Source: Styela clava (Eukaryota > Chordata > Ascidiacea > Stolidobranchia > Styelidae). From it: 64,000 bases of DNA. The notes below the pieces were generated by a model, which worked only from the letters and a program-made list of their open reading frames with translations, was not told where the DNA came from and searched no databases. Location of the stretch: NCBI RefSeq assembly GCF_964204865.1, contig NC_135251.1, positions 7,874,001 to 7,938,000 on the forward strand, read 5' to 3'. Of the stretch, positions 12,710 through 63,801 are shown in pieces; the stretch's first letter is position 1, and each line of letters begins with the position of its first letter. The translations under genes were made by a program, and so were the position numbers.

Positions 12710-14494
<1,785 letters not shown>

Positions 14495-23401: not shown

Positions 23402-25520
23402 TCAGCAAAGATCATCGGAATCTAAAAAAAATTATTATTCAGCTGGAGTTGAAAACTTAATAATTTGATTGCAAAAATGGTGCTCAGTAGAGAAATATTA
23501 CATCAATTTTCTATGTGTTGTTTGTATAAGGCATTAGAAAGGCAACTATCACAAATATTGTTTATCACAAATGAAATTGAGGGAAAACCTGGCTAATTTC
23601 CTGCAAACATATTACAATTTTAGGGGTCATTGATCGTCCACAAATATATAACGTCGCCTTGGCACACTGGGCGTTTCACAAGTTCCTATTCATTCTAACT
23701 CCCCAGAAGCCCCCCAAAGAATAACCTGGGAAGTACACTTCTCACAGTACAGTACACAAATCAAAAAAAAATTTCAGAAAATATAAATCATGCAGACAAA
23801 ATGTGTCATTGTTTCATCTAAAATGACTTCAATACTTATTCCAGCACATCAGAGACTTTTGGTTTAGTATGATTTGACAAAATACTAATTTGGGAAGGCT
23901 GAAAAAATGCTTATTGCGGTGGCATTTCACCTACCGTTATCGCTTTCATGTTGTAGTGGTTCATTCATTTGTGGTTCTCTTGCTTGGTTTCCACCAACTG
24001 CACCAGGTTGTCTTTGTTCGTTTTGACCCTTAAAACAAATATTTCCTTTTAACTACCGGTCACATAAACTGCTTATTATTGACAGAATTATAAAGTGCAG
24101 AATAATATCAATTAACTTCAAGGTCAGAATACTCCATAGGAAATAGTGGTCTCGATATCCCATGGTTCCTATGCGGGTTTGCTGTCAGCATGAAATATGA
24201 GTGTCTATTAACATTTCAATCCATGTTAAACATTCTCAAAGTCACCAAGTATAAATTGACAAGAGGTTTGATTTCTGCTACTTATATGATAAGCCACATA
24301 TTTCCCCCAAACAAGGCGCTATTTAGGGAGATGCCAAGAGAATCTAATTATAAATTGACATTGAGTTTTTGTCAGGTTGACCTGCCCAACCTACTTATTA
24401 CATCTTGTGTGAGGAGGTTGAAAATACAATTAAAAAAATAATAATAATCAAATCTCACCATTTGCTGATTGTTATGATTTCCCGGTAGATTCACATTTCC
24501 GATATTCGCTCCAGCAAAGTTGACAGGTGGAGGTCCTCTGCGTTCTATGAATATAAAAATAAAAAGTATTGGATTGATAATTCACACAAAATTTATTTTT
24601 TTAATGTCGTTTCTTTAATGTCACTATTTCATTTTTGTCCTGAATGATGTCTTCAGAGAAAACTCATGTGTGCCATCTTTCATATTAGTATATTATACTG
24701 TGTGAGGCGAGAGCAAGAGCCTTGATCTACCCACCTTCTACTGGGAAAACAAAATTCCGATTGCAAATTTCCGGTTCATCACCATCTTTATCCATCTCGT
24801 ATCTGATGTTACGATGGGGATATTCATCGAGGACAGGGAAAAGATGAACCGTGTATTCATTTCTTTGCTTTCTCAAGAATTTTTTATCTACCAGAAAAGT
24901 ATGGCCATCAGGAAAATCGAAATGCAAATTTTCTGGTCCACGGTCAATTTGGAGTTTCATGTGAACTCTGTCTCTAATTTTTAACTGAATCTGAGGGAGA
25001 TGAAAAGGAGCAAGTTGTGCACCCAGGTCTTCATAATAATGTCTGACAGTGTTCTGAACAGTCTCACCACATGTGAAAAATGCAAAATGAAATTGGTTTT
25101 TGTTTAAAATATAAAGACGATGTTCCATAAGAAGCTCCACTGTTCCAAATAGCAACCACTTGATGAAGGCTATAACTGGGCTGAACTCTCTGCATCAAAA
25201 TTCTATGCTGTTATCCTCTGTGATTCGATCAGGATTAATGATATTCCAATCAGTTTTACTTGAGAAATGTAATATGTCAATTTTGTCTTTCTCTAGACCG
25301 ACGCACCATGATTGGATTTGCACGATCGCATCTTTGAGAAATTTGGAATCTGCACTGATATCGAAAACTGGTGTGATACCAATGTATTCTTCTGGACATA
25401 GTGAATTGTCAATTCCAACTGACATCCAGACCTTTGTTTGTTTGTTGAAAGTTCCACTAGGAAATGTGACTTTGCATTCGTTCAGTCTCATGGAGCCGCC
25501 AGCGACTTCAACGTTTACCA
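23402..25520 (-). pseudogene. Family copy A: FIIND (ZU5-UPA) exon plus three tail exons, broken by one nonsense codon
   Basis: Minus-strand exons are 25520-24735 (786 nt, ZU5 plus UPA), 24544-24459, 24028-23935 and 23421-23402. All are bounded by AG and GT and agree in phase. The large exon is the same length as in copy C. It keeps the DILHF histidine and the EFSPV cleavage-site motif. A TGA at 25197-25195 replaces an Arg codon (CGT in copy B, AGA or CGN elsewhere) four codons before the Phe-Ser pair. The change is the classic CGA to TGA transition. The tail encodes NHNNQQM, GQNEQRQPGAVGGNQ and finally DSDDLC before a TGA stop. With no upstream intact FN3 exon (only relics near 27.7 and 28.8 kb), copy A is probably a recent pseudogene. 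A functional truncated product ending before UPA cannot be excluded. Confidence 0.72.
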
Positions 25521-25611
25521 CTAAAAAATAGATTTGTTTTATAATGCGACATAAAATAAATTTTGACCATTTGTTCCAAAGTTATCTAAAGAACCCTTCC
25601 GATGTCATTAG

Positions 25612-35570: not shown

Positions 35571-36175
35571 GGTTCAAGGTTGACGGCCTCGCAGGCCACA
35601 CTATTATTTTTGTATTAGCCGCGGGCCACAATAGTGCCATGAATAGGTAAACATTGCAATACAAAACAAACACTTTCATTGTCCAAACACATTGATCATT
35701 ATTTGTCACTTATTAAGCTAAAACATGCCAAAACCACCAAAAAACTCACTAAAAAGTGCAAAAATATTATTATATCTACATTTGGTGTAAGATTTCAAAC
35801 TCTTCATAACGGAGAAAATGTCGTTTTAGATTGTCACCGACACAACTTGCAGACATATTGAGCAAGCATTGTGGTATTTTCCCTCCCATATCCAGTCAAA
35901 CATCTGTTTGAATTGGTCATCTGTACGTTTCCTTGGCCAATTATGTGCAATTGTTCTGAATCCCCATAAAAGTTATAAGTTGGAGGTGGTGGTGGTTGAT
36001 GATCTGCACGAAAAGAACAATGTTGGATGGACCAGGATGAAATCGTACGAAATTGCTTTTAATTAAACCATTGTGATGTAACAAGCTAAATTAAACTTTG
36101 CTCGTGTCAAACGTCACGCTGAGGTTAAACGGTCAATTATACCCAGTTAACGGTTAAAATGAAATTTCCAGCCTC
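35571..36175. mobile_element. hAT end fragment plus a fragment of the GGGCTGGGAA family
   Basis: CAGGGTGGTTCAAGG and GCCGCGGGCCACAATAG at 35571-35640 look like the left end of a hAT element with no right end. 35990-36175 shares AAATTGCTTT, GTCAAACGTCACG and CAGTTAACGGTTAAAAT with the 25846-26533 element. Open frames at 35679 and 35869 are not recognisable. Confidence 0.4.
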
Positions 36176-37244
36176 AATTGTCAGGCATTTAATGTTTCAT
36201 TAATCATTTGTGAAATAATGAAAAGTAAGCAACATGATATGGGTTACCCCTGGGCTACCATATAATGCTGGGCTTTTTTCGAAGGCATTTCGCAATTAGC
36301 AAAAATCGTCACATGGCACTGAGATATAGACATAAAATATATAACCAAATTTTCCAGTAGTGCCGTCAATTACTCACCTACTGGTTCTAATGAAAAATCA
36401 AATCACGGTCGCATATCTCCTGTTCATCACCATATTTCACCATCTCATATCTATTGTTTCTTCTGGGATATTCTTCTAATTCAGGGAGAAGACGGAACTT
36501 GTAATCATTTCCTTGCTTTCCTAAAAATGTTTTGTCTACTAGGAAAGTATGGCCATCAGGAAAATCAAAATGCAAATTTTCTGGTTCACGTTCAATTTGG
36601 AGTTTCATGCTAACTCTGTCTCCAATTCGTAACAAGATCTGAGGGAGATGAAAAGGAGCAAGTTGTGCACCCAGGTCTTTATAATAATGTCTGACATTGC
36701 TCTGAACAGTCTCACCACATGTGAAAAATGCAAAATAAAATTGGTTTTTGTTTAAAATATAAAGACGATGTTCCATAAGAAGCTCCACTGTTTTAAATAG
36801 CAACCACCTGATTACAGCCATAATCGGGCTAAACTTTCTGCAACGAAATTCTATGTTGTTATCCTCTGTTATTCGATTAGGATTAATAATGTCCCAATCA
36901 GTTTCACTTGAAAAATGTAATATGTCAATTTTGTCTTTCTCTAGACCGACACACCATGACTGGATTTGCACGATCGCATCTTTGAGAAATTCAGAATCTG
37001 CGCTAATATCGAAAAATGGTGTGATACCAATGTATTTATTCTTCTGGGCATAGTGAATTGTCAATTCCAACCGACATCCAGACCATTGTTTGTTTGTTGA
37101 AAGTTCCACTAAGAAACGTGACTTTGCATTCGTTCAGTTTCATGGAGCCGCCAGCAACTTCAACGTTTACCACTAAAAAATTAGATTTGTTTAATCATAA
37201 CAGGTGGTTCCAAAGTTATCTAAAGACCCTTCCAATGTCATTAG

Positions 37245-38518: not shown

Positions 38519-38780
38519 GTTTGATAACATTCTTTGACTGTGTTTTGATGCCAGAGTTTTTTCCAATTCATCTTTGGCCCAAACTTGGAAACGATATTTT
38601 TTACCAAGTGTAGGTGACTTCATTCTATACTGAGGAACCTCTGTAGTGTCTCTTTGAGTTTCACATCATCACAGAAAATTTCTATGTTGTATAGAACGTT
38701 TCTGTCAGGTACTTGATTCGAAGTCAAAAGAATGTCGGATCCACATTTTTGGGATGAAACATTTTCAATTTGCGGCAAAG
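38519..38780 (-). pseudogene. FN3 exon of copy B (frameshifted)
   Basis: Encodes LPQIENVSSQKCGSDILL as in copy C, then shifts frame where CACATTGCAGAGATTCC of copy C is shortened by four bases. The splice sites (TTTAG acceptor, GTAAGT donor) are intact. Confidence 0.8.
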
Positions 38781-39524
38781 CTAAATACAAATATTTCATT
38801 TTTAATAAAAGCTTTGACCTTAAAATTATTGGTTGGCAATTTACATAAATATTCAAAAACCAAATAAAATATAAAATAGCAGTCAGTAGCAATTCAATGA
38901 TATTCAAACCAAGAAAGCAGGTTTATCATAAAACAACTGTGGGTGGCTTCTTCAAGCAAAAGCCAAATACAAAGATTCATGTGCATCTATTAGGAAATTA
39001 AAGATTCAGTTAGCAATGTCTGCTAAAAGCGGGGTTAAGGTGTTTTCATTGGAATCGGAGCTGAAGTTGTATTTTCAAACTCAAAAGCAGAACTAGAAAT
39101 TTAAATTTAAAATCACCTGGGTCATAATTGTAGACTCTCATGGTGATAATTAAGTCAAGTCGATTTTTTTACGGCTACGGTTCGCCAAACATTACAATTT
39201 TTGTGAGAGTTTGCAATTTGTTTTAAAAAAAGTTTTTTTTTATTATTGTAGAGGTGTGTAACAAGGCCGGTGCGACAAGCCATTTAGTGTGACCCTTGTA
39301 AATATTCAGATTGTTCCCCGTCAAGCATGAAATCCTAATCCGACAATTTATGTTGGCTGATCATAACAAACTATGCAAGAACCTAAAGTTTCAAGTGTCC
39401 CACCGAAATGTTACATAAATAGGATTTTTGCATTGTGTGAATTTTTCAATTCTTTGTTTGAGGAAAAACTAATTTTTTTTGCTTACCCATTTAGATGTCT
39501 GAAGTTGGTTATATGGCTCACTGA

Positions 39525-41823: not shown

Positions 41824-42675
41824 ATGAAAGTTGGTTTACAAATTGATGCTGTAAAAGGGCTTCGGCGATAACCGTAAAAATATGCTCAAAGATAGGAAAT
41901 ATTTTCGGAGATGAAGCTATGGAATTAAAATTAGAAGATGTTCAAGTCCATGATTTAGGAAAAGTTGGCGAAGTTATAATTACCAAGGATGATACTTTGT
42001 TTCTACGTGGAGCAGGGAAGCAGGAGGATATCGACCGCAGGATCGCTCCAATCCAAGAACAACTCGAAGACACATCAAGCGATTATGAACGTGGAAAATT
42101 GAACGAACGTCTTGCTAAACCTGCCAGTGGTGTCGCTGTTTTAAAAGTAGGCGGCTCAAGCGAAGTTGAAGTTTATGAAAAGAAAGATCGTGTCACAGAT
42201 GCTCTCAACGCAACACGAGCAGCTGTCGAAGAAAGTATTGTTCCCGGAGGGGAAATCGCTCTCCTCCGCTGTTCGTCTTCACTTGAAAATATCGAAGTTG
42301 AAAATAAAGATGAACAAACTGGGGTCGACATTGTAAAAAAATTCTCAGAATTCCTACGTCAACTATCTGCTCCAATGGTGGATTAAAAGGTTAACTTATC
42401 GCGGAAAAATTGCTCCAGGCTGAAGGGGATTATGGTTACAACGCACGCGAAGACCGGTATTGTAATATGATGGAAGCTGGTATCATTGACCCGACAAAAG
42501 TAGTCAAGCAAGCTCTTGTCGACGCTTCAGGAGTAGCATCGTTATTGACAACTGCGTAGTCGTCGTCATCACTTTGGTCGTCACAGAAGAGCCGAAAGAT
42601 GAATCAGCTGGGCCACCTATGGGTGGTATGGAAGGCGGAATGGGGGGCATGGGAAGAATGGGTGGGATGATGTAA
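41824..42675 (+). pseudogene. Truncated, broken HSP60 duplicate
   Basis: Corresponds to HSP60 residues from about 289 (KVGLQI) to the stop. Most of the KAPGFG to ATGGI stretch is deleted or frameshifted. The 41919-42386 frame is near-identical to the parent from MELKLEDV, then a one-base loss near 42335 shifts it. Later an in-frame TAG (42557-42559 region) and extra bases follow. The Gly-Met tail is still recognisable to the TAA at 42673. The 5' two-thirds and promoter are missing. Confidence 0.9.
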
Positions 42676-44713: not shown

Positions 44714-47541
44714 CAGTGGCAGCGCGTGGTCATTTTGACAACCGGGGCAAGCTACTGCGGGACCAAGTCACCCCCATCTACGGGGACAGGATGAGCGCTG
44801 TAAGTTCTCCCATCATTTTATGAGTATAAAAACCATTCCATCGGTAACAACCAATCGGCAAAAGCGACAATTTTTAACGATAAGAAAGTGTCTTTAAAAC
44901 CGGTCCAAGTCAAGGGATTAATAAATATAGACATAGTTTATTTTGAAACCTCTTTCAAAAGGAAAGGCAATATTTACCCAGATAAATACAAGGACATATT
45001 AACAGAAACTTCGGGAAAGCAGACAAAACCTAAAATAAGGTTTAAAATGTTACTATGAAGAAAGGAAAGAAATGCAAAGATAAGGACATGCGTCGCTCAC
45101 TCATAGATATATATGCTGCTAGACTTCTACTGCTTGAACATATATGCAACACGCCGCGGTTTCTTGGAAGCAAAATGCTCAATAACGCGCTGATTAAAGT
45201 CATGCATCCCAGAAATAACGTCTCTGTGAATGGATAAAACAGCCAAGGAATTTAATCTATCTTGCTTCATTATGTTTCTGAGATATGTTTTAATACGCTT
45301 CAGCGTGCTGAATGTTCGCTCTGCGTCGGCGGAAGAAATAGGCGTCGTCAAAATGATGTCCAGAAATTTTGCAGACGCCGCAAAGGTAGTTACTAGAGTG
45401 TTATCTATGAGGAACCCATAGAGCGCGCAAGTTGATGTGATGTTCAAAAAAGTTTGATTGGTGTATATACATCGCAATTCATTTTCCAATTTACCCACGT
45501 TTATCATGGGGTAAAATTTGGAGACAGTAGCCAACAAATGGATGGGAAATTGACGTGCAAATTTGGAAAAAATTTTGAGGTTAATCAAAGAGAACGCGGC
45601 AAGGTGTTCAGTGCGCAGACGATTGCCTATTTGATTCACCAGAATGTCACAGCATTCCTTTGCAGACAAAATCAAACGCTGCGTTGTTTGCCCGCGGCGT
45701 AAAGAAGCACTCCATGTGTCGTCGTATTTTATTGTTTCCCGGATACGAGATACAGCATCGCAGAAGTCTGAAATACACGACTGCACAGACGCTCCATCCA
45801 TTAGCCTTGACTGCAATACGCCGTATAATACATCCACGTGATAGAATATTGTGGAGAAAAAAGCGAGAAAAAATGAAAACTCACCATCTTCTAGCAGACG
45901 CTTTAGACCTGCCGCCTCCCTCACAGAGCGTTCGTCCCAAACCGGAGAGCTCTGAATGTCATTGAAACACTCAATGAGCTCAGACCTAATTTCGGACACG
46001 CCCTGCACCACGCGTGATTGGAAGTTCCAACGTGTTGGTGCACTAGCTGGGAAACGGCGGCTACATATCTGGCGAAGGAGGTCAGAGCGCTTCGGCGAAA
46101 CGAAAAAAAATGAAGAAAACCCCGAAACATTTGCAAAAAATATACGGACGAGAGGGGTATCAAGACACATATTTTTAATAACGAGGTTAAATTGATGTGC
46201 ATAACAATGTAAAAAATGCGCATGAGGAAAATCTTCTTTTATATAAACTTGAACACCATGTTTCGACCCACTCATGACTGCCGCGCCGTCATAAGTTTGA
46301 GCTATCAATTTTGACTTCGCGTTGTAAGGCTGTAACACTTCTTTCAGTACAGCCGATATCCCGCAAGCCGTGCGATCAACGATTGGTACAAAGCTGTGAA
46401 ATCTCTCGGTATGTTTACCATCTTTCACAAACCGAAAAATCACAGCCAGTTGGGAAACGCACGTGATGTCAGTTGTCTCGTCAGACTGAATCGAAAGGAA
46501 CTGGCAATTCTCAATTTCCAGAGCCAAATGTTGTAAATAAATTTTATACATTGAGTCGAGCAAATCATTTTGGATATCCTTAGATGTCCCTTTCGAAACA
46601 GTTGCGGCATCAAGATGATCTCTCAATACTGTATCTAGGGATGCGATGTATTCCACCATATCCAAAAATACCCCTCTATTTGAAGAGCCAGCCCGTTCAT
46701 CGTGCCCAAGGAGGGACAGCTCGTGACAACCAATAAACTTCAAAACATCTATCAATCGACCGAGAACATGGTGGTTTTTCTCGACGTTTTGGTTGTGCCG
46801 ACGAATAGAAACTGCGCGTCCTTCATCCAACTGTGCTGCAATATTAACATTTCCGAATGTTCGATATTTTACTGCATTGTTCAGATGCTCCATAGAAGAT
46901 TGATGATCCCTGGCACGCTCGGAAAGATGTTTAAATCTCTAAAACCAAATTTACACCAACGTGAGTCACGGGCGGTAGCAAAAAGTAGGCAATATAAACA
47001 AAAAAGTGCATTTTTGTCCTCGCTGTAACACAACCATTCGTGTTTTTTATACCAAGTTTCTGCGCAGAATGTACGCCGACGCTTTCCTCCCTCATGGGAT
47101 TGTTCCAGTGAACAATTTTTTGGTTGATAAGGCCCAAGACGTTGTACCTCTAATTTTTGTTCCAGCGGCAGCTGCGAAAACGGAGTGCGAGGTAGTGCAT
47201 CAACCTTATTCATTATGAGGTCTAAGGCTAAGAAATGCGAAGCCGGAAAGAAGTGAGGAGCTCAAAAGGAATGTGGAAAATCGAAAGCAAATGGACTAAA
47301 GGTCTCTAACTGATTCAAATAGCGAAACAACGACAAAAACGAAGGCGAGGAAACTATCAACTCTCCAAGCAACCAACGAACGAGAAGGAATGCGTGAATA
47401 TGTCAACACCATGTCGGGAGAATATGGCTAGTGTAGAAAGTCTGTGCAACCGATATTGAGGTATTTTTCGAATATTTTTTATTATACCGAAAAAACAACC
47501 GGGGCATTGCCCCGGTTGGCCCTATCGACGCGCCGCCACTG
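44714..47541 (-). mobile_element. hAT transposon of the ZMYM / TTF zinc-finger type, 2.83 kb
   Basis: The ends are CAGTGGCAGCGCG and, inverted, CAGTGGCGGCGCG, followed inward by CAACCGGGGCAA on both sides. Exact 8-bp duplications CATTTCAG lie at 44706-44713 and 47542-47549. The uninterrupted target is visible in the sister element near 31080. It carries the transposase described below. Confidence 0.93.
45127..47213 (-). pseudogene. hAT transposase with N-terminal TTF-type zinc finger, one frameshift
   Basis: Two overlapping minus-strand frames make one protein. The first, from the ATG at 47213, holds a TTF-like finger (WYKKHEWLCYSEDK then LFCLYCLLF). The second, to 45127, gives 588 residues with TYDGAAVMSG (about 200-210), HFLHCYAHQFNLVIK (about 229-243) and the C-terminal dimerisation region ISSADAERTFSTLKRIK. 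These are hallmarks of ZMYM1-like hAT transposases. The frames should join at GFRDL to FKHLSERARDHQSS near 46940, where one base is gained or lost. Everything else is open, so the element moved recently. It has no role in the neighbouring genes. Confidence 0.9.
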
Positions 47542-51183: not shown

Positions 51184-54100
51184 CTGAAAAAAAAAAATTT
51201 GTTCATTCAGATGACGCTGAAAACTGTCCTCAGTAGAAAAATATCATAACAACTTTCTAATTAATTTTGGAATAAGGCATTAGATTAGAAAATATTACAA
51301 ATCTTGAATATTGTTTGTTTAAAATGAACTTGGTAGAATTCCTGCAAATATAATAATATTTCTAGGGTAATTGATCGTTCGCAGATATGTAAAGACTACG
51401 TTCAAAAACGAAGGCAATTATATAGTACAGTACACATAGCAAAAATAGAAATTCTGAAAACATAAATTATGCAGACAAAATAAGTTATTGTTTCATGTAA
51501 TCTGGCTCCAAGAACTATTTCGGGAACATAAAGAAAGAGATCAAGTTTGCGAAGCTATTTTTGTCAATGGTGTTTCACGTACTGTCATCACCTTCATGTT
51601 GTATTGGTTTATTCTATTGTGGTCATATTGCTTGGTTTCCACCTACTGCTCCACCATTTCCTTGATCATTTTGTCCCTTGAAAAAATTTCATTTTTACTA
51701 TCTAGCATATGTTTTATCTTTATTACCTGCTATAAAAATGCAGCCAAATATCATTCAAATTTAGGAATTAAATATTTCATATGGTTTATTGGTTGAATAT
51801 TACACAGGTCTGGTCTCTTGGTATAGCAAAGTTCCATATGTATGGTAACATCACATTTTGTGGCTTGGTATCAACCTGAAATAGGATAGGCTCAACATAT
51901 TTTTCCCAGGGAAGGAAAAGCCTATAACACGGTTTAACTTGGGGCATGGCGTTAGTTAGCCAATCATTCCAAATGCATAAACTTGATGATGGAGGAAGCA
52001 ATAACAGACCAGCGATTAGGTGAATTAACCTACAATGGCAAGGAGTCAAGAAATCCTCCCCATGTGATGCGACCCCACGCAGGGTAATCAGAGGTGTGGT
52101 GGCCAGTGTATAACATGACATACGATGCACCACACCGCCAAGACTGTAACTGTCTATTACATCTTGTAAGAGGTGGTTGAGGTGATACATGTGAATACAA
52201 ATAATTATAGGAAGTTGAGAATAAATATTAATCAAATTTTACCATTTGCTGATTGTTCTGATTTTCTCTCTCCGGTAAATGCACATTCTCAATATTTGCA
52301 CCAGCAAAGTTGATATTTGGAGGTCCTCTGCGTTCTATAAATATAAGTTTAAAAAGATGTTTAATGCAGAAAAGATTTATGATCGCCTTTGGCTTAGTTT
52401 CAAACTAAAGATTTATTCTCTTATAAAAATATATATCAATGGAAGTGTGATGTACCAAAATCTACGTCCAAGTAAATAAACTTAGTGGTGAGTAGGTTCT
52501 CAAGACAATGCGCAGTTAACATAAGACATTCTTTACAACTTCAATATGCAAAAAGTCGGGTAATAAAATTCAACTTTACATATTCCAATGATGGGATTTT
52601 CAAAACTGGCCAATCATGTAATGTACATTCTGTTCAATCTAGATTTTAACCAACATACAAAACTATTTGACATTTATCTTTCATTTTGGAATGAAGCAAA
52701 CTTGCTCGGGGCAATAGTTACATTCCTCCTCACCTGGAGGTTTTAGTGGAAAAGTAAATTTTATAACTTTTCTATCATTTTCATCTTCATTTTTCACCAT
52801 TACACATTTGATGATTATTTTAGGATATGGTTGTAAGTCAGGGAGAATTTCAAATTCAAAGTCATGTCTTGATGCCATTAAGAAGTCATCATCTACGGAA
52901 AATATGTGACCATTAGGTTCATTGAACTGCAAGTCTCCAGGCCCTCCTTCGATTCGTAGTTGGAGATGAATTTTGTCTCCGTGCCTTAAAATCAATTGGT
53001 TGAATCTTGTTGGTACCGGGTGTGCACCACGGCTCTCGTAATATGTAATTATGTTTCTTTCAACAAGTTCACTTAGACTAAAAAATGTGATGCAGATTTG
53101 GTTGTGACCCATGATATACAGAAAGTTTTCTTTGAGAACTGGGGGATACCACCATCGTTTGATAGTGGCAATTACTCGACTGAACTCTTGACAGCGGAAT
53201 TCTATAGTTCTGTCATGCGTGACTAGATCAGGTTTAATAACGTTCCAGTCAGTGTCATTGGTAAAGTGAAGTATGTCAACGTCCTCTTTCTTCAGCTCAA
53301 GACGCCATGACTTCATTTGTACTACTGCGCTTTTGTGTAATGTTGATTCTGCACTGATGTCAAGAGCTGGTGTGATTGCATAGTATTGTGCTGGGCATAT
53401 TGAATTGTCCAATCCAAGTGACATCCAAACTTTTGTTTGTTCATTGAATGTTCCATCCGGAAAAAAAACTTTGCATTCGTTAATATTTGTTATACCTCCT
53501 CCCACTGCAATGTTTTCAACTAAAAACAATTTGATTTTACTGTTAACAACTAAGCAAAAAAAGAGTTATGTTTTTATTTTATAAATAAACAGGTTCATAA
53601 AACTGCATATGCGGTAACTCAAATCTGAAAGCTTGCTACTGGATTATATTCTTCTTGATAATTCCATGTCATGATGTTGTCATTCAAAACCAAATACAGA
53701 ATTTTTTTTTTTCAAACTATAGCTATGATATCATTGAATACTTATATAGTTCTAACTACGTGACATCGCAGATCACACGTATTGGATTCAAATTTCATTC
53801 TCCTCACTCTGGGTATTGAATATGCATATAACTGCACACACACATAAAAACTTCCACCGCTGCCAATAGGCTCGGCACATTTTCAATAAAATGGACGCAA
53901 AATTTGTATTTTCTATATTCCATCTAAGTTGTAAATTTGATTATGTAATTGTATCTAAAGTAAATGTTTCATCATTTATTTTAGATATTATTCATATCAT
54001 CAAACTGCAGTAGCTATGCAATTTCCTCCAAAAGTAATTCCTTGTTTGCTTGGAATTAAAAAAAATTAGACATCCTGATGCCACTTGCAAATAAAATTCT

Positions 54101-57100
54101 TCACACTACTTTTAAAATAAGACAATAACATTTGCATACTCCAGAAGTTATTGTAGTATCGTTTGTCAGCAAGACACACAATATTCGGAGCGTCATTTTC
54201 AAACCTTGGCAATGGTAAAACTTATTTTTGTTATGTAAATATATGTTTTAGAGGGCTTGCCCAGACTCAAATACTGTATGTGTATGTCGTATTTTTTGTG
54301 GTATGTTGTTAAATTCACCAATATCAGACGTGATCGACCACTTGGGACATGGCGATCAGCGAGTTGGATATCTTTGCTATAGAGTATAATGCGATTGCTG
54401 GAAATCCCAATAGTCTCAATTTAGCGCATACGGTAATTATTTACTTGCTTTGCTGATATTTTATTATCATGCTGTATGTCCAGGGGTGTGCAACCTATAT
54501 TACAGGAGGGCCAGATACAAGTAACTGGGTACGGCAGCGGGTCGCGCCTTTCCTATGTTTTCTTAGCAACAGGATTTTGCTAGCCAGCGTTGCTAATATG
54601 GCAGCGGCACCCAGGTACTAATACAGTATAGGCTTTGCGATGTAAACAGGTTGGAATTGCTCACACGTACCAGATTAAATGAACGAAAGCTCATTTCGCG
54701 GGCCCACCATTTAAATTTGGTACCATACTTATCCGCGGGCTGCACAATTTTATCTCGCGGGCCACAGTTTGCACACCACTGCTGTAGTCGATCAAAATAT
54801 GAACCATGGCAAAAACTGGAATAAATTGTTACAATGAGTTGGAAAGTCTACCGTCACTACAATATGATTCTGACTGCCAGTGGTTGCTCTCTTGTATATG
54901 TGTGTTATTCACAGAAGTAAACGACATAAAAAATTGAAATCTACTTAATCCTGAAAATATACCTTTTATAACATTATTTGACTGTGTCTTGACTCCAATG
55001 TTCCCCAATTCATCTTTAGCCCAGACTTGGAAACGATATTTTTTACCGAGTGTAGGTGACTTCATTCTATACTGAGGAATCTCTGCAATGTGAGTCTTCC
55101 TAAGTTTAACATCATCACAGAAGATTTCTATGTTGTATAGAACATTGCTGTCAGGTACTTCATTCCAAGTCAAAAGAATGTCGGATCCACTTCTTTGAGA
55201 TGAAACATTTTCAATTTGCGGCAAAGCTTAAAACAAATATTTCAACTCAACGCAGATATTAAAACAGATGTGAGAGCGTGTGACACCTCATTTGTAGCAA
55301 CAGGACTTTTTGAAAACCTCTTGCACATGACAAAGAGAACACACGTACAAAAGAATCAGATTCGGATTTAAGATTTAGCCCGTCAATCCATTTAGTTTGA
55401 CCCTTTTTAACACTCAGGTTGTTCCCCATCAACCATGAAATCCTAATCCAACAGTTTATGTTGACAGTTCTGACAAAGCTGATCTAAACAAACTATGAGA
55501 GAATGATACATATCACGTTAAAAAATTAACTTTGTTTACATTTATGCTTGTACAAAACATCAAACTACTTTCGATTTTGTACTTCAAGCTGCAAGTTGGA
55601 GGCCCGCAATTTTAAAGAGGCCTTGTGGGTAGCAGTCGGAGAAAATCCAGGATTGATGGAAATACTGTGAGTTTACTTATAATAAATATATTAAAAAATA
55701 ATAATTTACCATTCTAATTAGTTTATTGTTATGTTGCATGGGTCGTTTTTTTTATATCAAGAAAGATATATAAAGCGTTTAGTGTTTAGTTCTTTCAAAA
55801 TTACTTCCCCAGAAGTACAGTTATATTATCTGTATCTTTTCTCATATTCAATTCTGTAATGTCGCTTAAAATTATAGTCTTTTGTAATAGATATTACTTG
55901 GGAGCAGACCAGTGACTGTAGTCTACAATTGTTGTGAGCAAGGAAACCAGTTTCCTCCCAGTTTTCCTCTGTAACCTTTCTTCTGACACTGATATTATGA
56001 TGAATTGTTAAGTTTGACTAGTTTATAACTTGCAGTGTGAGTAGACCTAGCGCTATTGCCAAAGAACAACCAAGTACATTTGAGATGGATTTCAGGACCT
56101 ACCAAAAAAAAAACTGACTGCGCGCCACAAAAACAGCTCTGCGTTTTCCTGCTGCTATTACATGGCTCACTAAAATAAAGGCACAAAACGTTTCTTAACT
56201 TAAGCGATTGTTTCTCTAAATAAGGAGTTTGAGATGAAAAGGCCAAATCCAGTCATATAATCTGCCGGACACTGTCTGCACAAGACAATTCATTTCTCGT
56301 GCCCTCCGCCACCCTCTCCCCCATCCCGTACCAGTAACATGTGACAGTACCGATCACAGAACGTCCATAATGACACTGTCTTGATGTTTATAGATTCAAA
56401 TATCAATCCCAGGTCGAATACCTCAAAAACGTTCTGCTAATGAATACGAACATCTGCTGATGTTTTAGTCACTGGATTTGTTCTGGGCGCCGCAGCACAA
56501 AACGTGTCATAACAGGGTTTGGACCAACCTGGTATACTTGATTAAACGCAATCACAAACATAATACAAGTACTATACTGCTCATAATATTTAAGTTGTTT
56601 AACATGTGTCAGAATTACCATATAGACTTATTTCATCTTCTTGTTGAATTTCCTCTACTTCAGTTGTAGGGATTTTGCTTCTGAAAACAAAGTTTATGTA
56701 CATAAGGAAACAAATTAAAATTTCTTGACTGGATTTTATTTGGTTGGCAAAGTTTGCCTCGTTTGTCACTTAAAATCACTCAAAATTAGATAATCTTTAG
56801 ACATTGGTTGGAAAGTCGGATTTGTCCATCATGCTAAACAGTGGTTCTCAACCTTTTACTGACCGCGTACCACTTTACTGTTTTTTACTATAGCCACGTA
56901 CCACCGATAAAGCCCCCTTTTAGGCGTGAGGGAAAAGACACAAGAAACGTGCTATGGGGGTATTTGATAATGTGGCACTACATCCCTTGTGGCATGAAAA
57001 ACGGACCAAGACTTGCCCACATCGCTTCATTTATGGTGGGCAATATCGGGCGAAGGCGATCTCTAATGACAAGGACTGGTAGCGCACCAGGGCTATGAAC

Positions 57101-60100
57101 GTTTCCCCGACTATTGACCCCGGAAAAAATTATCCCTACACTTTACTATTGCAAACTTTATGCTTATTCTGAGAGTGGTTTGATGTGTTGGCGCATATGA
57201 ACTGGCTTATGTGTTCGAAACTATCATTTTTATTAAAATTAATCAACCATGTGCCGCGTTTGCAGGTACTGATATAGCTAGTTTAGCCTTGTCCATTGCA
57301 GCATTTGCGAGATTCGTTTGATTACTGCAACTAAAGTAAAGCTCCGCGGAAGACATAATGACAATTAAGTTAATTGATTTACAATTCTTTTCTTGAAACA
57401 CAACTGAAAACTGAAAAATATCACTCAAACTACAAAAGCGAGGCAATGTTTGCAACCATGCTTGAATATCTGTTTGACAGATGTGTCTGAGCGGCTGGGG
57501 TGCAGAAATTGCAATTGTTACGTGTCATTATTGACTCATTGCTGATTGGTTATGGTTACGGAAATGAACAGAAAAACTGATGCTTTGGGAAACATCCATA
57601 AACGCTGTTCAGCGAATACATACAGTATGGAAGATAAAGCGTTGTCGACATAAATTTAGTCAACTGAAAGAGTAATTGTTGCAATAATTCAAATCTGCTC
57701 GCGTACCACTTGAAAAGCTCCCGCGTACCACTAGTGGTACGCGTACCACAGGTTGAGAACCACTGTGCTAAGACATTGAAATCCACTAGGAGTTTATGAG
57801 TAGATTAACCGAGCAGTGCCTCGAAAACAAGTTACTTATACAGCCATAGGGAGGTTCGGGATATAACCTTAGTTGAAGAATCTCAGATCCTAGTCTTTGT
57901 ATGTGCTGAAAATTCGATTCTAATTATCATTTCAATTTGGGTGACATGAAAATTATGAGCAAAATTATTTTCAAGATGCCTTTTGTGCAACTGCTTTAAA
58001 CTTTTCTGGTCAATTTCTCATAACAATAAGATCTTAAAAGGGAATTGTATTCAAACCATGACGAATGTACATTTAGACTTTAGTCTAAACAAGATTATGA
58101 ACAAATCTATGCTCTGTCGAAGTAAAACTTGTTCCATAGATAATTTCAGTCCGACAAAGAACAGATATCGATGGTAAAGATATAGCAATCACAATTAAGA
58201 CTCAAGTATGAAACAATTATTGGACACGTAGTGGACATAACGATCGTTTCAATATTATGTTGGTCTTGTTGTTGTTCTTTGACACTTTTTGGACATCTAG
58301 TGGAAAATCTAAAAAACGCTTTACTCTTTCATTACTGGACCGATTGCTTCGAAATTTTTACCGGTTAAAGATGACATTTTTCTCCAGAAGGCTATTACTT
58401 TTATTTATTTCAAATATTTCTGTTAGCTCTGTGAGATTTGTTTTTGTTTGCTATGACGTCACCGAACGTTCTGCGGACGCATAGCCGACACTCCTCTTCT
58501 TTTTGATCACGTGACATCTAACGTCGATGGTTCGTAACGAAGTCCTTACGGTACTTTGCTGCGATTTTTTCCTTACGCTGATCGACGGTACGGTAAACTG
58601 TACAGTACTGCGAACAGACGTGTCCATATATTTGGGCGTAGCTCTCTTGTTTCGAGGATCATTATTTTTTAACTATGTTAATAATTTATCTGACCTTGGA
58701 CCTCCATCTCCGTCTGAAGTTTTTCTCCTCTTCTCACATGTAGTTCTAGATGAGGTATCGCCTACAGAAAAAAAAAATTTAATTACCACTTTGCGTAAGA
58801 AAAGCAATTTTTATGAAGGATAAAAATAAAGTTCTATATCCTACTTAATGTTGTTCAGATTTTTTAAATTTATATTAATTTATTTCAGTTTTAAATCAAA
58901 ATCATTATATTTTATATTACATGTTAGGCCACTAACACTTGTCATCCGGTCTACAATTTTTTTCATATTTAGAAACTTCAATTAGCTGTTTAAACATAAA
59001 GACTATATATACAACCACTGAAGTAATGACTTAACTATGCTTAAATATTAAAAAGGTAATCAAAATGGCAAAAAAGGAAAAGATGGTCAAAATAAATACT
59101 TTTATTAGTTTGATTACTAATGTTAACAACCAATTAATTATTTTGAATTTACAATAATATATATAGTTAGTTCAAATAATTCATTCAAAGAATTCTAATA
59201 TTAGCTAACCCAAAATATGAGTGGAGGCTTCAATCCACCTCACTCACAAACTTTATTATTGTCTCAATTTGAATGCATTCTCTTATTTGTTCAGAGGCAT
59301 GATATTCTCATTTATGTAGATAGATTAAATCGTACAAATTTCATTGAAAGCATAGCCTATCTTGAAGAACTTATGGCTCCGATAATGTTATCGCCACATG
59401 CTAAAGATCTATATTGTAGTCATAATCAATACAAGAAAACCGCTTGCAGGAGTAAGGAAATGTGTAGAATGTGTCAAACCAAGATGCCTATTGTTTTTCC
59501 AAGTTTGTTGCTTTTAACGATCAGTTCAATGCTTTGTTTTCAGTGAGTGTGGAAACAATGGTTTGTTTTCAGTGATCGTGGAAATTATGTAAAAAGTAAG
59601 CTGCATAAGTAAAATATCATTTAGACACCGTATTTATCTCGGGGGAGAGGAAAGTCGATCAGACAGCGCAAGCATATGGCATACCGCGGCCTGTGATCCA
59701 TGTAGGTATGAGACTTGTAAGCAATTAGTTAGTTATTTGTTATCAAATGCATGGACTTGATGATAGACGAAGCTGTAACCAGCCAGTGGTTAATTGGACA
59801 ACACTACAACAATGTCCCACAATCCTATTAAAATAATTATCCCTGACAAGATTCCAACTTGCAAACTCTCGGGGGGGTAATCATAGGTGCGATGGGAGGA
59901 AGCATATTTCTAACAATTGGAACCATGCGCCACATTGCCTGAGTTTGGATTCCCTGGATTGTTGAAAAAATCCAGAACTGCTGGAATCCTATGTGAGAAG
60001 GTGTGGCGCCAGTTTTTTCAAGTTATAGTCATTATATCATTGAATAATTATATAGTTCTAGCTAAGTTGTTATCAGGTGGCGTAGTGGCCTTTTTTAAAT

Positions 60101-63100
60101 CAGGCTCAAAACTGCTTGACTGGATGAAACTGTAATGTTTCATTCCCTCTTTAAGATCAGCACAAAACATTTACATTGCCTTTTTTGCAGTAGTGGTTTA
60201 TATTCAACATTCACAGCTGATCCTAACAAACTATGAGAGAACTTGAAGTTTCAAGTGTCCCACTAAAATGTTACATAAATAGGATTTTTTCATTGTGGGA
60301 AATTTTTAATTCTTTATGTTAACAGCAAAACTAAATTTTTTGTGTGGCCCAGTCAGATGTCTGAAATTGGTTATATGGTCAGTACTTCCTCATAATTACA
60401 AGCATTTAGCTCAGCCCAACTCTACCTGATTCTATTAGTATGGCTGACTTACTATGCTGAGTTGGCTTTGCAAGTTGTTTAGTTACTTCTTCATCTGATT
60501 GTTTTGCTTCTACTCCAGACAGCAGGAGTTCACTTCTGAAAAAAAATTAGAGCATTCGAATATATCAATGGCTTGGTTATATATCAATATCATTGGTTAA
60601 AATAATGGCTCCTATTACTCGATTTCAAAACCCTTCTCCTTACCCAGGGTGTTAAAGATTGTGCGCCAGGTGTGGGCATGGACTTTAAACGAAAGATTTC
60701 CATCCTGTGATAGATAATATATAACACTTTAACCTCTAGACCACCGGTTCCCACTAGTGCAACGTGGCAATTTGCTAAGAGTGCCCCGAAAATTAACAGA
60801 ATTGTGGTAAACATAACTAATATATGATTAAATATTTTACATATTGTAATTAATATAAATTTATAGTTTTTCATTTTAAATGTGTATATGAACATATATA
60901 ATTATCAACCAGCAAAGATGAGCAATTCGTCAACTTGACTTCAGATTTTAATGACCTTATAGAATATAGAATTTTGGGCGCTCCTTCCATATGTGAACCA
61001 AGATAACCCTAAACTGGTACACATAGTATGTTCAGGTGTCTGCCATCTCGATTTACATACTACGAGAGTACCAAAGTTTGTGCAAACACCCGTTTGCAAT
61101 AGCCACAAGTGCATTAGATGAATATTCCTCTTCCTTTAGACGCACAACTTTAAAAACATAAAACAGCAATTTTTTATTTGGGTGCGCTGTTGTTATGTAA
61201 ACCGCTGCAGTAGGCCATCACTCAATCCCCTTGACAATTGAAATACAGGTGAACATTATAAATCATACAAAGTTAAAGTACTGTCATATCTAACCTGGGA
61301 CTTCCTACTTCTTGTGAAGTCCCCACTTTTTCTTCAGTATTCCGAAAACTGTCATCTGGTGATCCTTAAAAAGAAAAATAAATCATGATCAAGAAATGAT
61401 AGTATTTAAGAATCAGACAACTCTTTTGAGCTATTCAATATCGTTTATCACAAACTATGATAGAATTTCCTATTTAACCCGGAAAAGAATAATTGATAAT
61501 ACTGCTTATTCATACGAGAAACCGCGGCCTCTCTTTCATCATCCGGTTACCAGTGCATGTTGGCCGAGTATAGGATTAGTTAACCAGTTACTATTCCAAA
61601 TGCATGGACTTGATGAACTCAGCAATCCTCTCACACTACTCAATTTAAAAATATATTTATAACTTACCAAATTCAGCTTTTGAAGTTGTGGTCTGAAGTT
61701 GTTTAGAAAAGACAACATTGGTTGTAGCATCCGCTGACTTTCTTTGACTTTTGAGTATTATGCCTCCATCCAAGTAAATTTCTAGTTTCTGTAATAAATA
61801 AATTTTTTATAATAAATTAGTACTGAAAGGTTTTAAGAATAATTTTTAAACTGTCAATGGTCTGTAATATTTTCCGTGTTGGAATTCAATGCATTTTATC
61901 ACTCCATACTATATAGACGGGATGCTTATTCATAAAATTTTTCCATTATTGGAAACCTTTTCGATAAAATTCATTGATAATTGCTTTAAAGTATTGGTAC
62001 ATTTACTTGAAATTAGAATATTTCTTATTCAAACAGAAACACGAATGAAATCTTGACGATGTAAAATTTTTATTCTCAATTTCATTTGATGAAAAAATTG
62101 AAATAAATTCTCAATGCAGTAGAGCAAGATGAATGATAAATTTTGGGAACTAAAAAATGTACTATGCAAATTGTTCTTTTTATAAAAACACAAATAAACA
62201 TGATTAAAATATAGCAAATATTGATTATGTGCAACACAATCAAATTGACCGAATCGATTTTAATTATAAGAATTGCTTTAAAGAATTGAAATGACACCAA
62301 TGGAAACAAGAGAGCTATGCTCAAATTTATGGACATAGCTTTGACACATATTTTTGATGACGTCATAGCAAAAAATAAAAGTAATAGCCCTCTGGCAAAA
62401 AATATAATCTTCACTCACTGAAAATTTCAAAGCGATTGGTCCAGTAATCAAAGAGAAAAGCGATTTCTTCAAAACGTGTCAAAGAACAAGAACAACAAGA
62501 ACATCATAATATCAAAACGATCGTTATGTCCACTACGTGTCTAATAACACTCTAATATGTGAAACTCTAATATGTTCAGTCCAGCGTGAACAATTTAGAT
62601 TTTCAGTTAATTTCAGTTTTTATGCAAATCATTGATTTTATGTCTGAACCATATTTTACAAATTGTTGATCCCAAAAGGAATTTCAAACCTCAGATTCAA
62701 TTTCATACAATTGATTCTGCAATATTTCTTTATCTTCATCAGCTATTTTCCATCTCTGCAATGATAACTTATATGTAACATTAGGAAGCAGATTTGCAAC
62801 TGCAACAATATCTTCATGGTTTGCAATACGATCTTCATCATATTCCAACACACCAATCTGTTGAAATAAACAAATACAAAGAACAATCCGACGTGAATGA
62901 AATACATAACAGTCATACTCTGCCCAAGCCACATTGTTCATATTACGCAGAAATGCATTGTAACATTAAAATAGAGCCTTGTGTCGGAAGTTGTGAGTTT
63001 TCATCAAATGAGGAAGAATAATTATCAAAATTCAATGTTTTACTTGTGTGACATTTTTTGTGGTCAAATCAATTGTATTTCACAAATTGGTAGCATTTAA

Positions 63101-63801
63101 AATCAATTAACAAAATATTTGTTGTTAACTCTGAGCAACATGGACAAACTTGAAATTTCAGACAAACAGACAAGCTCTTGTAATATAAAAAAAAAATATC
63201 AGAGTTTCAAAAGTTCAAGGTTGCTTTGAATGGTAATTTATAAATTCTGAACAAAAATTAAGAGTTAAAGTTTGTCTCAAGGTTTGCAGTGAAAAAGCAA
63301 TGTCTCAAAAAGGTCTCATCTGTGTCATTGAGATTTACTAAATTTAGGCAATTTTAGGTATTTTACACAACCACACAGGACAAGACTCAACAGAACTAAA
63401 TTGGTCATAAGAATTGGTTATTATGTATTTCAAACACATTTTTAAATAAAGGAAGGTCTGAAAACTATTATCAAAAAGATAAAATTAAAATTGTAGAAGT
63501 TTTTCATAAATTTCACCGTGTACTCCAATTTTGGGCTATGAAGGTATAAAACTTAACTTACAGTATTACAAATTCAAATTTTCCTCTAACTCTTTTAAAA
63601 CAATTCAATTATGTGATTATTATTGTGTTATACCTCTGTGTTGCCCAAGGATGATTTGAAAGCTTGTAGTTGATCTGAGGACAGGTTACAGTTTTCAAGG
63701 CTCAACTGTTCAACATAGGATTGATTAGAGAGTATTTGTCCAACTGATGATAAACCTTCAACTCCCATGTTTGTGTTTTCTTGCAGGTAAAACTTCATGA
63801 T
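51164..63801 (-). CDS. Family copy C: NLRP1-like LRR - FN3 - FIIND (ZU5-UPA) gene, 5' end beyond the window
   Basis: Twelve minus-strand exons can be placed: 63801-63634, 62857-62690, 61790-61668 (LRR); 61364-61295, 60535-60453, 58761-58695, 56680-56619 (acidic linkers); 55226-54963 (FN3); 53519-52734 (ZU5 plus UPA); 52334-52243, 51676-51583 and 51183-51164 (tail). From 61364 down to 52243 every AG/GT boundary agrees in phase. The tail frame meets TGA at 51625-51623, so the last exon may be untranslated. The FIIND of NLRP1 and CARD8 cuts itself to leave a non-covalent N- and C-terminal pair. The His and Phe-Ser needed are present here. By analogy the protein would be a cytosolic sensor with LRRs upstream, but no NACHT or CARD is seen in the window. 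The LRR-to-linker join is out of phase, so LRR exons could belong to a separate gene or isoform. Confidence 0.7.
51583..51676 (-). CDS. Penultimate tail exon of copy C, with in-frame stops
   Basis: It is 94 nt, the same length as 24028-23935 in copy A. It encodes GQNDQGNGGAVGGNQAI and then TGA (51625-51623), with a TAG three codons further on. Copy A reads through here. Copy C therefore ends about 20 residues earlier, in low-complexity sequence that may be dispensable. Confidence 0.55.
51786..52180 (-). repeat. SINE-like family 1 copy in a copy C intron
   Basis: Contains GTTAGCCAATCATTCCAAATGC, GATGATGGAGGAAGCAATAA, GACCCCACGCAGGGTAATCA and GAGGTGTGGTGGCCAG. The 149-aa minus-strand frame across it is a shadow. 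Confidence 0.55.
52243..52334 (-). CDS. First tail exon of copy C
   Basis: Acceptor TTTATAG, 92 nt, donor ATG|GTAAAA. It encodes RRGPPNINFAGANIENVH and then PERENQNNQQM. The copy A exon (24544-24459) is two codons shorter and otherwise alike. The Pro/Asn/Gln composition suggests a disordered tail following UPA, in the place where NLRP1 and CARD8 have a CARD. Confidence 0.7.
52734..53519 (-). CDS. FIIND-like ZU5-UPA exon of copy C (intact)
   Basis: 786 nt, 261 codons, phase 1 at both ends. Residues 14-110 fit ZU5 (NECKVFFPDGTF, TKVWMSLG, PALDISAES). Residues from about 115 fit UPA (FLYIMGHNQICITFF, KIHLQLRIEG). His85 in DILHF and Phe113-Ser114 in CQEFS lie 29 residues apart. In human NLRP1 the catalytic His and the cleaved Phe|Ser are 27 apart, in AHF and SFSPL. 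Cleavage would leave a C-terminal fragment of UPA plus tail. Unlike copies A and B, the residue after Ser is Arg and not Pro. The donor is CCAG|GTGAGG; reading through it stops at 52681. UNC5, ankyrin and PIDD also have ZU5-UPA, but the single HF...FS pattern fits NLRP1/CARD8 best. Confidence 0.85.
53540..54470. other. Intron of copy C, nothing further recognised
   Basis: AT-rich, with no exon-like or repeat-end sequence that I can defend. Confidence 0.45.
54481..54781. mobile_element. Short hAT MITE (GGGGTGTGCAA ends) in a copy C intron
   Basis: The ends CAGGGGTGTGCAACC and TTTGCACACCACTG are near-perfect inverses. Interior words are GAGGGCCAGAT and CTCGCGGGCCACAG. The flanks TGTATGTC and CTGTAGTC suggest a worn duplication. 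Confidence 0.7.
54963..55226 (-). CDS. Fibronectin type III exon of copy C
   Basis: 264 nt, phase 1 at both ends. LPQIENVSSQRSGSDILL, TWNEVPDSNVLYNIEIF and KYRFQVWAKDELGN give the Pro/Trp/Tyr pattern of an FN3 sandwich of about 87 residues. A phase-1 symmetric exon can be duplicated or skipped without shifting the frame. Its position directly before ZU5 is shared with copy B. Confidence 0.85.
55240..56610. other. Intron of copy C
   Basis: 55380-55530 (GTTCCCCATCAACCATGAAA, CTGATCTAAACAAACTATG) is shared with 39300-39390 in copy B. The CTGATC-TAACAAACTATG word also occurs at 60215. Otherwise nothing recognised. Confidence 0.5.
56619..56680 (-). CDS. Linker exon 4 of copy C
   Basis: 62 nt between TTTGTTTTCAG and GTAATT, encoding SKIPTTEVEEIQQEDEISLY. 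Very acidic. Starts in phase 2 and ends in phase 1, matching linker exon 2 at 60535-60453. Confidence 0.7.
56839..57765. mobile_element. Non-autonomous hAT element (GTGGTTCTCAACC ends) in a copy C intron
   Basis: CAGTGGTTCTCAACCTTTTA at the left, GGTTGAGAACCACTG at the right. Repeated GCGTACCAC words occur inside both ends. TGCTAA on both flanks is a partial target duplication. No transposase is present. Confidence 0.8.
58205..58500 (-). repeat. ACAAGAGAG repeat, inverted copy in a copy C intron
   Basis: Begins at TTATTGGACACGTAGTGGAC and contains TTACTGGACCGATTGCTTCG, AGAAGGCTATTACTTTTA and TATGACGTCA. The far end is degraded. A 75-aa frame across it is a shadow. Confidence 0.6.
58695..58761 (-). 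CDS. Linker exon 3 of copy C
   Basis: 67 nt between TTTCTGTAG and GTCAGA, encoding DTSSRTTCEKRRKTSDGDGG. Phase 1 to phase 2, the same as linker exon 1 at 61364-61295. Exons 3 and 4 thus look like a duplicate of exons 1 and 2. Confidence 0.65.
58770..60450. other. Intron of copy C with a SINE-like repeat at 59627-59915
   Basis: The SINE-like copy has TTATCTCGGGGGAGAGG, GCATACCGCGGCC and CATAGGTGCGATGGG. The 109-aa plus-strand frame at 59217-59546 has a signal-like C-terminus but no recognisable domain. I do not call it a gene. Confidence 0.5.
60453..60535 (-). CDS. Linker exon 2 of copy C
   Basis: 83 nt between TTTTTTCAG and GTAAGT, encoding SELLLSGVEAKQSDEEVTKQ and then LAKPTQH. In copy B (40987-40905) the coding part is preserved but the acceptor G is mutated to A. 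Confidence 0.75.
60977..61072. mobile_element. Short palindromic hAT MITE in a copy C intron
   Basis: Same insertion as 41431-41518 in copy B, so it predates the B/C split. Confidence 0.6.
61295..61364 (-). CDS. Linker exon 1 of copy C
   Basis: 70 nt between TTTTTAAG and GTTAGA. In phase 1 it encodes SPDDSFRNTEEKVGTSQEVG. In phase 0, the phase left by the preceding LRR exon, it would stop at a TAG after 19 residues, and the same stop exists in copy B. The acidic reading connects in phase to every exon downstream, so I prefer it. Confidence 0.65.
61500..61625 (-). repeat. SINE-like family 1 fragment between LRR and linker exons
   Basis: GAGAAACCGCGGCCTCTC, GGTTACCAGTGCATGTTGGCC and GATTAGTTAACCAGTTACT. 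It lies in the very intron where the phase fails, and may have removed or displaced an exon. Confidence 0.55.
61668..61790 (-). CDS. LRR exon 3 upstream of copy C
   Basis: 123 nt between TTTATTACAG and GTAAGT, in phase 0 at both ends. It encodes KLEIYLDGGIILKSQ at the start and FLNNFRPQLQKLNL at the end, the latter a clear LRR strand. It is 15 codons shorter than the two preceding LRR exons. Confidence 0.7.
62306..62545 (+). repeat. ACAAGAGAG repeat copy in an intron
   Basis: From AACAAGAGAGCTATGCTCAA to CCACTACGTGTCTAATAA, with TTTCAAAGCGATTGGTCCAG in the middle. It is the cleanest short copy (about 240 bases). Confidence 0.65.
62690..62857 (-). CDS. LRR exon 2 upstream of copy C
   Basis: Exactly 168 nt (56 codons), phase 0 to phase 0, between ATTTCAACAG and GTTTGA. 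It encodes IGVLEYDED at the start and LPNVTYKLSLQRWKIADED in the middle: two LRR units of 28 residues. NLR genes of vertebrates use near-identical 171-bp phase-symmetric exons for LRR pairs. Confidence 0.75.
63634..63801 (-). CDS. LRR exon 1 visible in the window
   Basis: 168 nt, phase 0 to phase 0, between TCTTTATAG and GTATAA. It encodes IMKFYLQENTNMGVEGLS and SYVEQLSLENCNLSSDQL, a canonical LxxLxLxxC/N pattern. Further LRR exons, and perhaps a NACHT or N-terminal signalling domain, are expected beyond position 64000. Confidence 0.8.

Follow-up and report, generated by a model that had tools for sequence, protein, structure and literature searches.

Several animal proteins carry a paired ZU5-UPA module. 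UNC5b and ankyrin-B are such carriers without being NLRs, and we know of no self-cleavage in either. PIDD, which has no NACHT domain, signals to a caspase, and CARD8 has neither NACHT nor LRRs. The GAIN domains of adhesion G protein-coupled receptors are extracellular and have a different cleavage motif. Within ZU5-UPA, cleavage at SF/S is described for CARD8 and NLRP1, and the two CARD8 fragments are pulled down together (PMC3210808); the UPA aids assembly of the freed UPA-CARD fragment (PMC7794386). Here we describe a ZU5-UPA exon of the predicted gene LOC144419943 in a 64,000-nucleotide stretch of the Styela clava genome (contig NC_135251.1, positions 7,874,001 to 7,938,000), hereafter the window. 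The exon is likely to encode the ZU5-UPA of a tunicate NLR (NACHT-LRR-FN3-ZU5-UPA-tail) that would cut itself and release an output carried by its tail.

The module resembles NLRP1 in that NACHT and LRRs are followed by ZU5-UPA with a His and a Phe-Ser pair at matching places, the serine being in the register of Ser1213. It differs from NLRP1 in an FN3-like domain before the module, in that no CARD was found after it, in the lack of a FIIND profile match and of a clear counterpart of Glu1195, and in the His-Ser spacing (29 in Styela, 27 in NLRP1). CARD8 differs in ending in a CARD. Like the Styela protein, PIDD has a ZU5-UPA with Phe-Ser after its LRRs (PMC3210808). However, PIDD ends in a Death domain and is cut at HF/S, whereas close Styela members read CxxFS with the His upstream.

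Among invertebrates, cnidarian NLRs combine NACHT with ZU5 (PMC8260672), and TRADD-N proteins in animals carry FIIND or ZU5-UPA with self-cleavage predicted (PMC8195603). An earlier note on this DNA named only NLRP1-type proteins for this arrangement after LRRs; by these published combinations it is not unique to NLRP1. Both sets contain, like Styela, invertebrate immune-type proteins with ZU5 or FIIND; catalytic residues and effector fusions of the Styela kind are not described in the accessible parts for either, and the proteins of the second set are built on TRADD-N. For fish NLRPs a survey of metazoan NLRs lists FIIND-CARD, and its accessible part lists none for ascidians (PMC11508797). 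The literature searched, with most subscription papers outside it, describes no tunicate ZU5-UPA NLR family and no direct NLR-ZU5-UPA-caspase or ZU5-UPA-kinase-RNase fusions in the parts available.

The ZU5-UPA exon, its fold and its gene

The exon is an open frame on the minus strand. It had been placed at 52734..53519, and matching to the NCBI protein shifts its edges by 1 base, to 53520-52735. Its 262 residues correspond to 1172-1433 of P0008, the 1481-aa protein predicted by NCBI for LOC144419943 of Styela clava. The exon product P0001 (52738-53517) is identical letter for letter to residues 1173-1432 of P0008 and supplies the numbering His84, Phe112 and Ser113 used here (the earlier note wrote His85 and Ser114). 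The claimed distance of 29 residues between His and Ser holds in the sequence.

AlphaFold2, run on a 51-row alignment, returned a model with pLDDT 92.3 and pTM 0.82. It places His84 in strand 80-85, and Phe112-Ser113 occupy the turn that leads into strand 114-120. Structure comparison (VIA-align on the Foldseek top 1000 PDB chains) gave UNC5b at 18.0 (249 residues aligned, 3.0 A), rat NLRP1 at 17.0 (234 aligned, 3.5 A), ankyrin-B at 16.7 (240 aligned, 4.0 A) and CARD8 at 16.3 (234 aligned, 3.5 A). UNC5b is ahead by 1.0 and the other three are tied next; they are followed by more ankyrin entries, NLRP1 UPA halves and, near 10, GAIN domains. By model and PDB matches the predicted fold is ZU5-UPA, with 234-249 of 260 residues aligned, in agreement with the ZU5-like and UPA-like halves read earlier. 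In the alignment with the human NLRP1 UPA half (6x6a), model residue 114 corresponds to residue 1214, and chain D of 7crv aligns from model residue 113. The NLRP1 cut falls before Ser1213, so with 114 paired to 1214, Ser113 shares the register of Ser1213. Searches of PDB by sequence returned nothing meaningful for the window exon or one distant member, nor for the profiles of 51 members and of 13 distant members.

The domain order in P0008 is NACHT, LRRs, linker, FN3-like domain, ZU5-UPA exon and short tail. The NACHT domain occupies residues 96-259 (Pfam scan, E 2.4e-17). The LRRs were read by eye, with Pfam LRR_1 and LRR_6 matches in relatives weak and below cut-off; the fn3 match in relative P0005 is likewise weak (E 0.017) and below cut-off. 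In this gene structure, NCBI-predicted and mapped here, the P0008 exons that begin with the last two of LRR type and run to the stop lie on the minus strand of the window. The module thus follows LRRs, as had been proposed: LRR exons are present in the DNA, and P0008 is a NACHT-LRR receptor. Another LRR exon is located 7 kb past the window end (71070-70900 in joined coordinates). Residues 1-781 of P0008, including the NACHT domain, have no match in the window or the 9.9 kb beyond, and NACHT membership in the window gene therefore rests on the NCBI prediction. The mapped features, in order of transcription, are:

63631..63801, minus strand: LRR exon (matches to P0008 and relatives)
62690..62860, minus strand: last LRR-type exon, approximate edges (P0008 match)
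61666..61791, minus strand: linker exon, approximate edges (P0008 match)
60439..60537, minus strand: linker exon, approximate edges (match to relative P0004)
58691..58759, minus strand: linker exon, approximate edges (P0008 match)
56620..56682, minus strand: linker exon, approximate edges (P0008 match)
54964..55227, minus strand: FN3-like exon before the ZU5-UPA exon (100% match to P0008 1084-1171)
52735..53520, minus strand: ZU5-UPA exon of LOC144419943 (open frame, identity to P0008, AlphaFold model, PDB matches)
53266..53268, minus strand: codon of His84, proposed catalytic His and counterpart of NLRP1 His1186 (from sequence and family conservation)
53179..53184, minus strand: codons of Phe112-Ser113, proposed self-cleavage site (from sequence, family conservation and NLRP1 UPA register)
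52243..52335, minus strand: tail exon, PPNINFAGANIENVHLPERENQNNQQM (sequence matches)
51626..51676, minus strand: last coding exon, ending NQAI then stop (P0008 match)

Conservation of the motif across the family

A six-frame search of the Styela clava genome gave at least 80 matches to the exon. At least 62 of these, the window exon counted, are close copies (43-100% identity) of nearly full length; 59 are free of internal stops and 3 contain them. The remainder consists of 2 fragments of the second window copy and 16 distant matches. Frameshifted copies show as fragments and hence fall outside the 62, and the figures 62, 59 and 16 are hand counts from the search table, to be read as lower bounds. 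The motif alignment contains the window exon and 49 distinct copies (37 of the 62 close and 13 of the 16 distant matches), the choice of close copies being non-random: L006 and the first window copy were left out for their stops, and 23 more close copies lie outside it.

The His is kept in 43 of the 50 aligned sequences, Phe-Ser in 46, Phe/Tyr-Ser in 48, and His together with Phe/Tyr-Ser in 42. Judged from these alignments, conservation of the motif exceeds chance. Within the close set (n=37), 36 members have the His, 36 have Phe-Ser and 35 have both; L034 has an Arg in the His position, and L016 a Gly in place of the Ser. The site sequence in close members is [CS][QRK][EKR]F[SG]. In the distant set (n=13) the His is kept in 7, and four of the other 6 read HF[ST], with a His right before the Phe, a form confined to these four copies and resembling the HF/S of PIDD. 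Phe112 ranks 1 in conservation in the close set and 8 in the whole alignment, and Ser113 ranks 38 and 10. Both codon classes are used for the serine (AGT 29, AGC 14, TCT 2, TCG 2, TCA 1). Whole-exon dN/dS is 0.18 to 0.64 and below 1 in 14 of 14 hand-chosen pairs; by this measure the exon is under purifying selection.

A genome-wide ZU5 search gave 7 matches, one of which is a distant family copy (C13:14.98 Mb). Two kelch-type ZU5 proteins at C3:21.2 Mb lack both the His and Phe-Ser (they read HFC), and the ZU5 domain at C5:12.6 Mb reads HFS without an upstream His, all by eye. This comparison with non-family domains covers these three matches; L065-L067 are partial and lie outside it.

The motif had been reported in all three copies of the exon in the window. 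It is readable in the letters of all three, but the first and second copies cannot be translated through. In the first, the stop falls 4 codons upstream of the Phe, between the His and Phe-Ser, and in the second the frameshift precedes the His. A protein is therefore possible from the third copy only, the one in LOC144419943. The features of the other two are:

24736..25521, minus strand: first copy of the ZU5-UPA exon, in-frame TGA at 25197-25195
24459..24545, minus strand: tail exon of the first copy
36393..37173, minus strand: second copy of the ZU5-UPA exon, frameshift near 37035
35924..36007, minus strand: tail exon of the second copy, second tail type (PPPPPTYNFYGDSEQLHIIGQGNV)
38567..38781, minus strand: FN3-like exon of the second copy, two matched pieces in different frames

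Relatives and their C-terminal outputs

The relatives at NCBI are 16 predicted proteins (P0002-P0017), all from Styela clava. NACHT is above cut-off in 6 of the 16 (P0008, P0009, P0011, P0012, P0016 and P0017), a count based on Pfam scans of 14, with P0013 and P0015 listed without a precomputed domain. Their 17 modules keep the His in 16 cases and Phe-Ser in 16. P0004 (LOC120334961) was seen to have two tandem FN3-ZU5-UPA modules, both with His and Phe-Ser.

Three relatives carry a caspase in the same chain. P0009 is a single chain of 1607 aa with the order NACHT-LRR-FN3-ZU5-UPA-caspase, and one genomic open frame covers both module and caspase in P0003 and P0005. The caspase residues, SHG or THG plus QFCRG, are readable by eye in each of the three. 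The genome-wide caspase search gave 54 matches, with a caspase directly after the module at C2:5.94, C6:18.83 and C18:14.55 Mb, which are the same three loci. P0014 (LOC144427274) combines the module with a protein kinase (2.9e-32) and a Ribonuc_2-5A domain (4.4e-15), a pairing as in RNase L or IRE1. The N-terminus of P0014 looks Death-fold-like by eye and has no Pfam match at E up to 0.01.

At 20 loci viewed with ~10 kb of context, the module is followed by tail type 1 in 11, type 2 in 3, a caspase in 3 and neither found in 3; one of the three caspase loci has a weak tail match before the caspase. After the UPA, the window gene has two tail exons up to its stop. Neither a CARD nor, after the module, a Death domain was matched by Pfam in P0003-P0007 (E up to 1) or in eight further proteins (E up to 0.01). 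Sub-threshold PYRIN matches fall inside the LRRs and were given no weight.

The tails (52243-52335, 24459-24545, 35924-36007 and those of relatives) are N/Q-rich, with INFAGANIGNLHLP...NQNNQQ or NFYGDxxxxVHIxGxGN motifs, some followed by a hydrophobic C-terminus by eye; P0004, P0012 and P0015 have a hydrophobic C-terminal stretch, also by eye. The receptor tails may resemble RHIM or other amyloid signalling motifs. Pfam gave no credible family for three tails (best E 0.094). Tail types 1 and 2 resemble each other (shuffle p <0.05 in 10 of 15 pairs, uncorrected). A single homotypic motif shared by NLR tails and the caspase pro-region (GKNxxGIxxN) was considered and is unsupported by shuffles: against five caspase-side pieces, uncorrected p is 0.074-0.946 for type 1 and 0.012-0.944 for type 2. 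Near the ZU5-UPA-caspase gene on C6 lies a cluster of Death-domain caspases (C6:18783605-18846758, L060-L064; 5 of 5 scanned frames). Two of them have a pro-region motif like INLKGKNATGIENNF, which is also found at the N-terminus of the ZU5-UPA-caspase P0005.

Proposed mechanism, alternatives and other window features

The module, once folded, would cut itself between Phe112 and Ser113 (Phe1284 and Ser1285 of the full-length protein) with His84 assisting, and the halves would remain bound after the cut. Removal or rearrangement of the receptor part would then free the UPA and tail, and the freed fragment would cluster via its UPA and trigger the tail-borne output. We infer cleavage, retained association, release, UPA clustering and a cell-death output by analogy with the described systems, and the protein is a ZU5-UPA NLR that probably works like NLRP1. 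A wider reading, which we hold tentatively, is that about 60 self-cleaving NLR-type genes share one FIIND-like release module with interchangeable outputs (N/Q-rich tails, a membrane-anchored related tail, caspases, and a kinase with an RNase-L-type ribonuclease). The released fragment would then possibly be the executioner, the sensor would need neither an adaptor nor a recruited caspase, and the N/Q-rich tails may self-assemble.

If the cut is real, self-cleavage control of the NLRP1 style is not confined to vertebrates and is greatly expanded in a tunicate near the vertebrate line. The NLR-caspase fusions through the module would then exemplify very directly how a sensor can set its own death enzyme free. 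They would also offer a simple system for asking what self-cleavage adds, as the cleavage residues are intact in two enzyme-fused proteins and one residue has been lost in each of two others.

The module had been called FIIND-like in the earlier note. The fold, the Phe-Ser register and, in sequence, the His (H1186 in NLRP1, H270 in CARD8) agree with this, but neither FIIND (PF13553) nor UPA has a Pfam match in any of the 51 alignment members (E up to 1; 7 families found). Because none of the 51 matches the profile, a CARD did not turn up and UNC5 is at least as close in fold, we class the protein as a ZU5-UPA NLR and not as FIIND; the earlier interpretation is thus partly supported.

Several results weigh against self-cleavage in the manner of NLRP1. 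Besides the missing FIIND and UPA matches, ZU5 itself is matched in only 6 of 51 members (best E 1.1e-5), where the distant members L053 and L058 are below the curated cut-off, and the best fold match is UNC5b, with ankyrin-B level with NLRP1. In conservation His84 ranks only 38 among the 260 positions in the close set and 39 in the whole alignment, with tied positions given one rank. No Glu lies nine residues after the His, where the triad Glu stands in NLRP1 (E1195) and CARD8 (E279); the nearby acid Asp97 is Asp in 33 of 50. The position after the Ser, a Pro in NLRP1, holds Pro in only 23 of 50 and an Arg in the window copy. Half-exon dN/dS reaches 0.83 in the ZU5 half (P0001-L017) and 0.81 in the UPA half (the caspase-fused pair L008-L017), two UPA-half values being saturated. 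Protein searches found no relatives outside Styela clava. P0009 has Gly for Ser and P0014 Arg for His, and both are enzyme-fused; the loss of a residue in 2 of 4 enzyme-fused modules against 0 of 13 others, not all independent, is suggestive only.

In one alternative the module is a non-cleaving scaffold, as in UNC5 or ankyrin, that holds the receptor closed or binds partners, with the motif serving packing. The ranking of UNC5b and ankyrin-B would fit such a scaffold, as would the many positions as conserved as the His and Ser and the still open frames of the two enzyme-fused modules without one of these residues. However, His plus F/Y-S occur together in 42 of 50 copies, unlike the three non-family Styela ZU5 domains, and the serine is maintained through AGY and TCN codons; we consider the scaffold unlikely. 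Far less probable still, and already disfavoured, is a decaying repeat family of little function in which the motif is inherited and not maintained. The damage to two of the window's three copies and the stops in 3 of 62 near-full-length copies, frameshifted ones uncounted, would fit this, but 59 of 62 are open and whole-exon dN/dS stays below 1 in every chosen pair.

Two further possibilities are compatible with the favoured reading of a self-cleaving ZU5-UPA NLR. The trigger could be the NACHT/LRR part, or PIDD-like, in place of N-terminal degradation. In favour, the receptor has NACHT and LRRs, PIDD has LRRs with ZU5-UPA and is cleaved at HF/S (PMC3210808), and of the six distant copies in which the upstream His is missing, four read HF[ST]; the sequence gives no separation of this trigger from functional degradation, and we lean slightly against it. 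By contrast, we lean slightly towards independent acquisition of a PIDD/UNC5-type ZU5-UPA by tunicate NLRs, which would make the likeness to NLRP1 convergent. The extra FN3-like domain, the absence of a CARD match and of a FIIND profile match, the lead of UNC5b in fold and the other effectors all point this way, whereas the order NACHT-LRR-ZU5-UPA is the same as in NLRP1 and tunicates are close to vertebrates.

The window also contains features apart from the receptor copies. A single-exon HSP60-like open frame of 594 aa lies at 12710-14491 (plus strand), with a second partial piece at 41847-42383 (plus strand); both are probably retrocopies. A C2H2 zinc-finger array in several frames occupies 33718-34131 (plus strand) and continues to about 34900. 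A hAT-type transposase-like frame of 603 aa (DUF4371, Dimer_Tnp_hAT) lies at 45130-46938 (minus strand).
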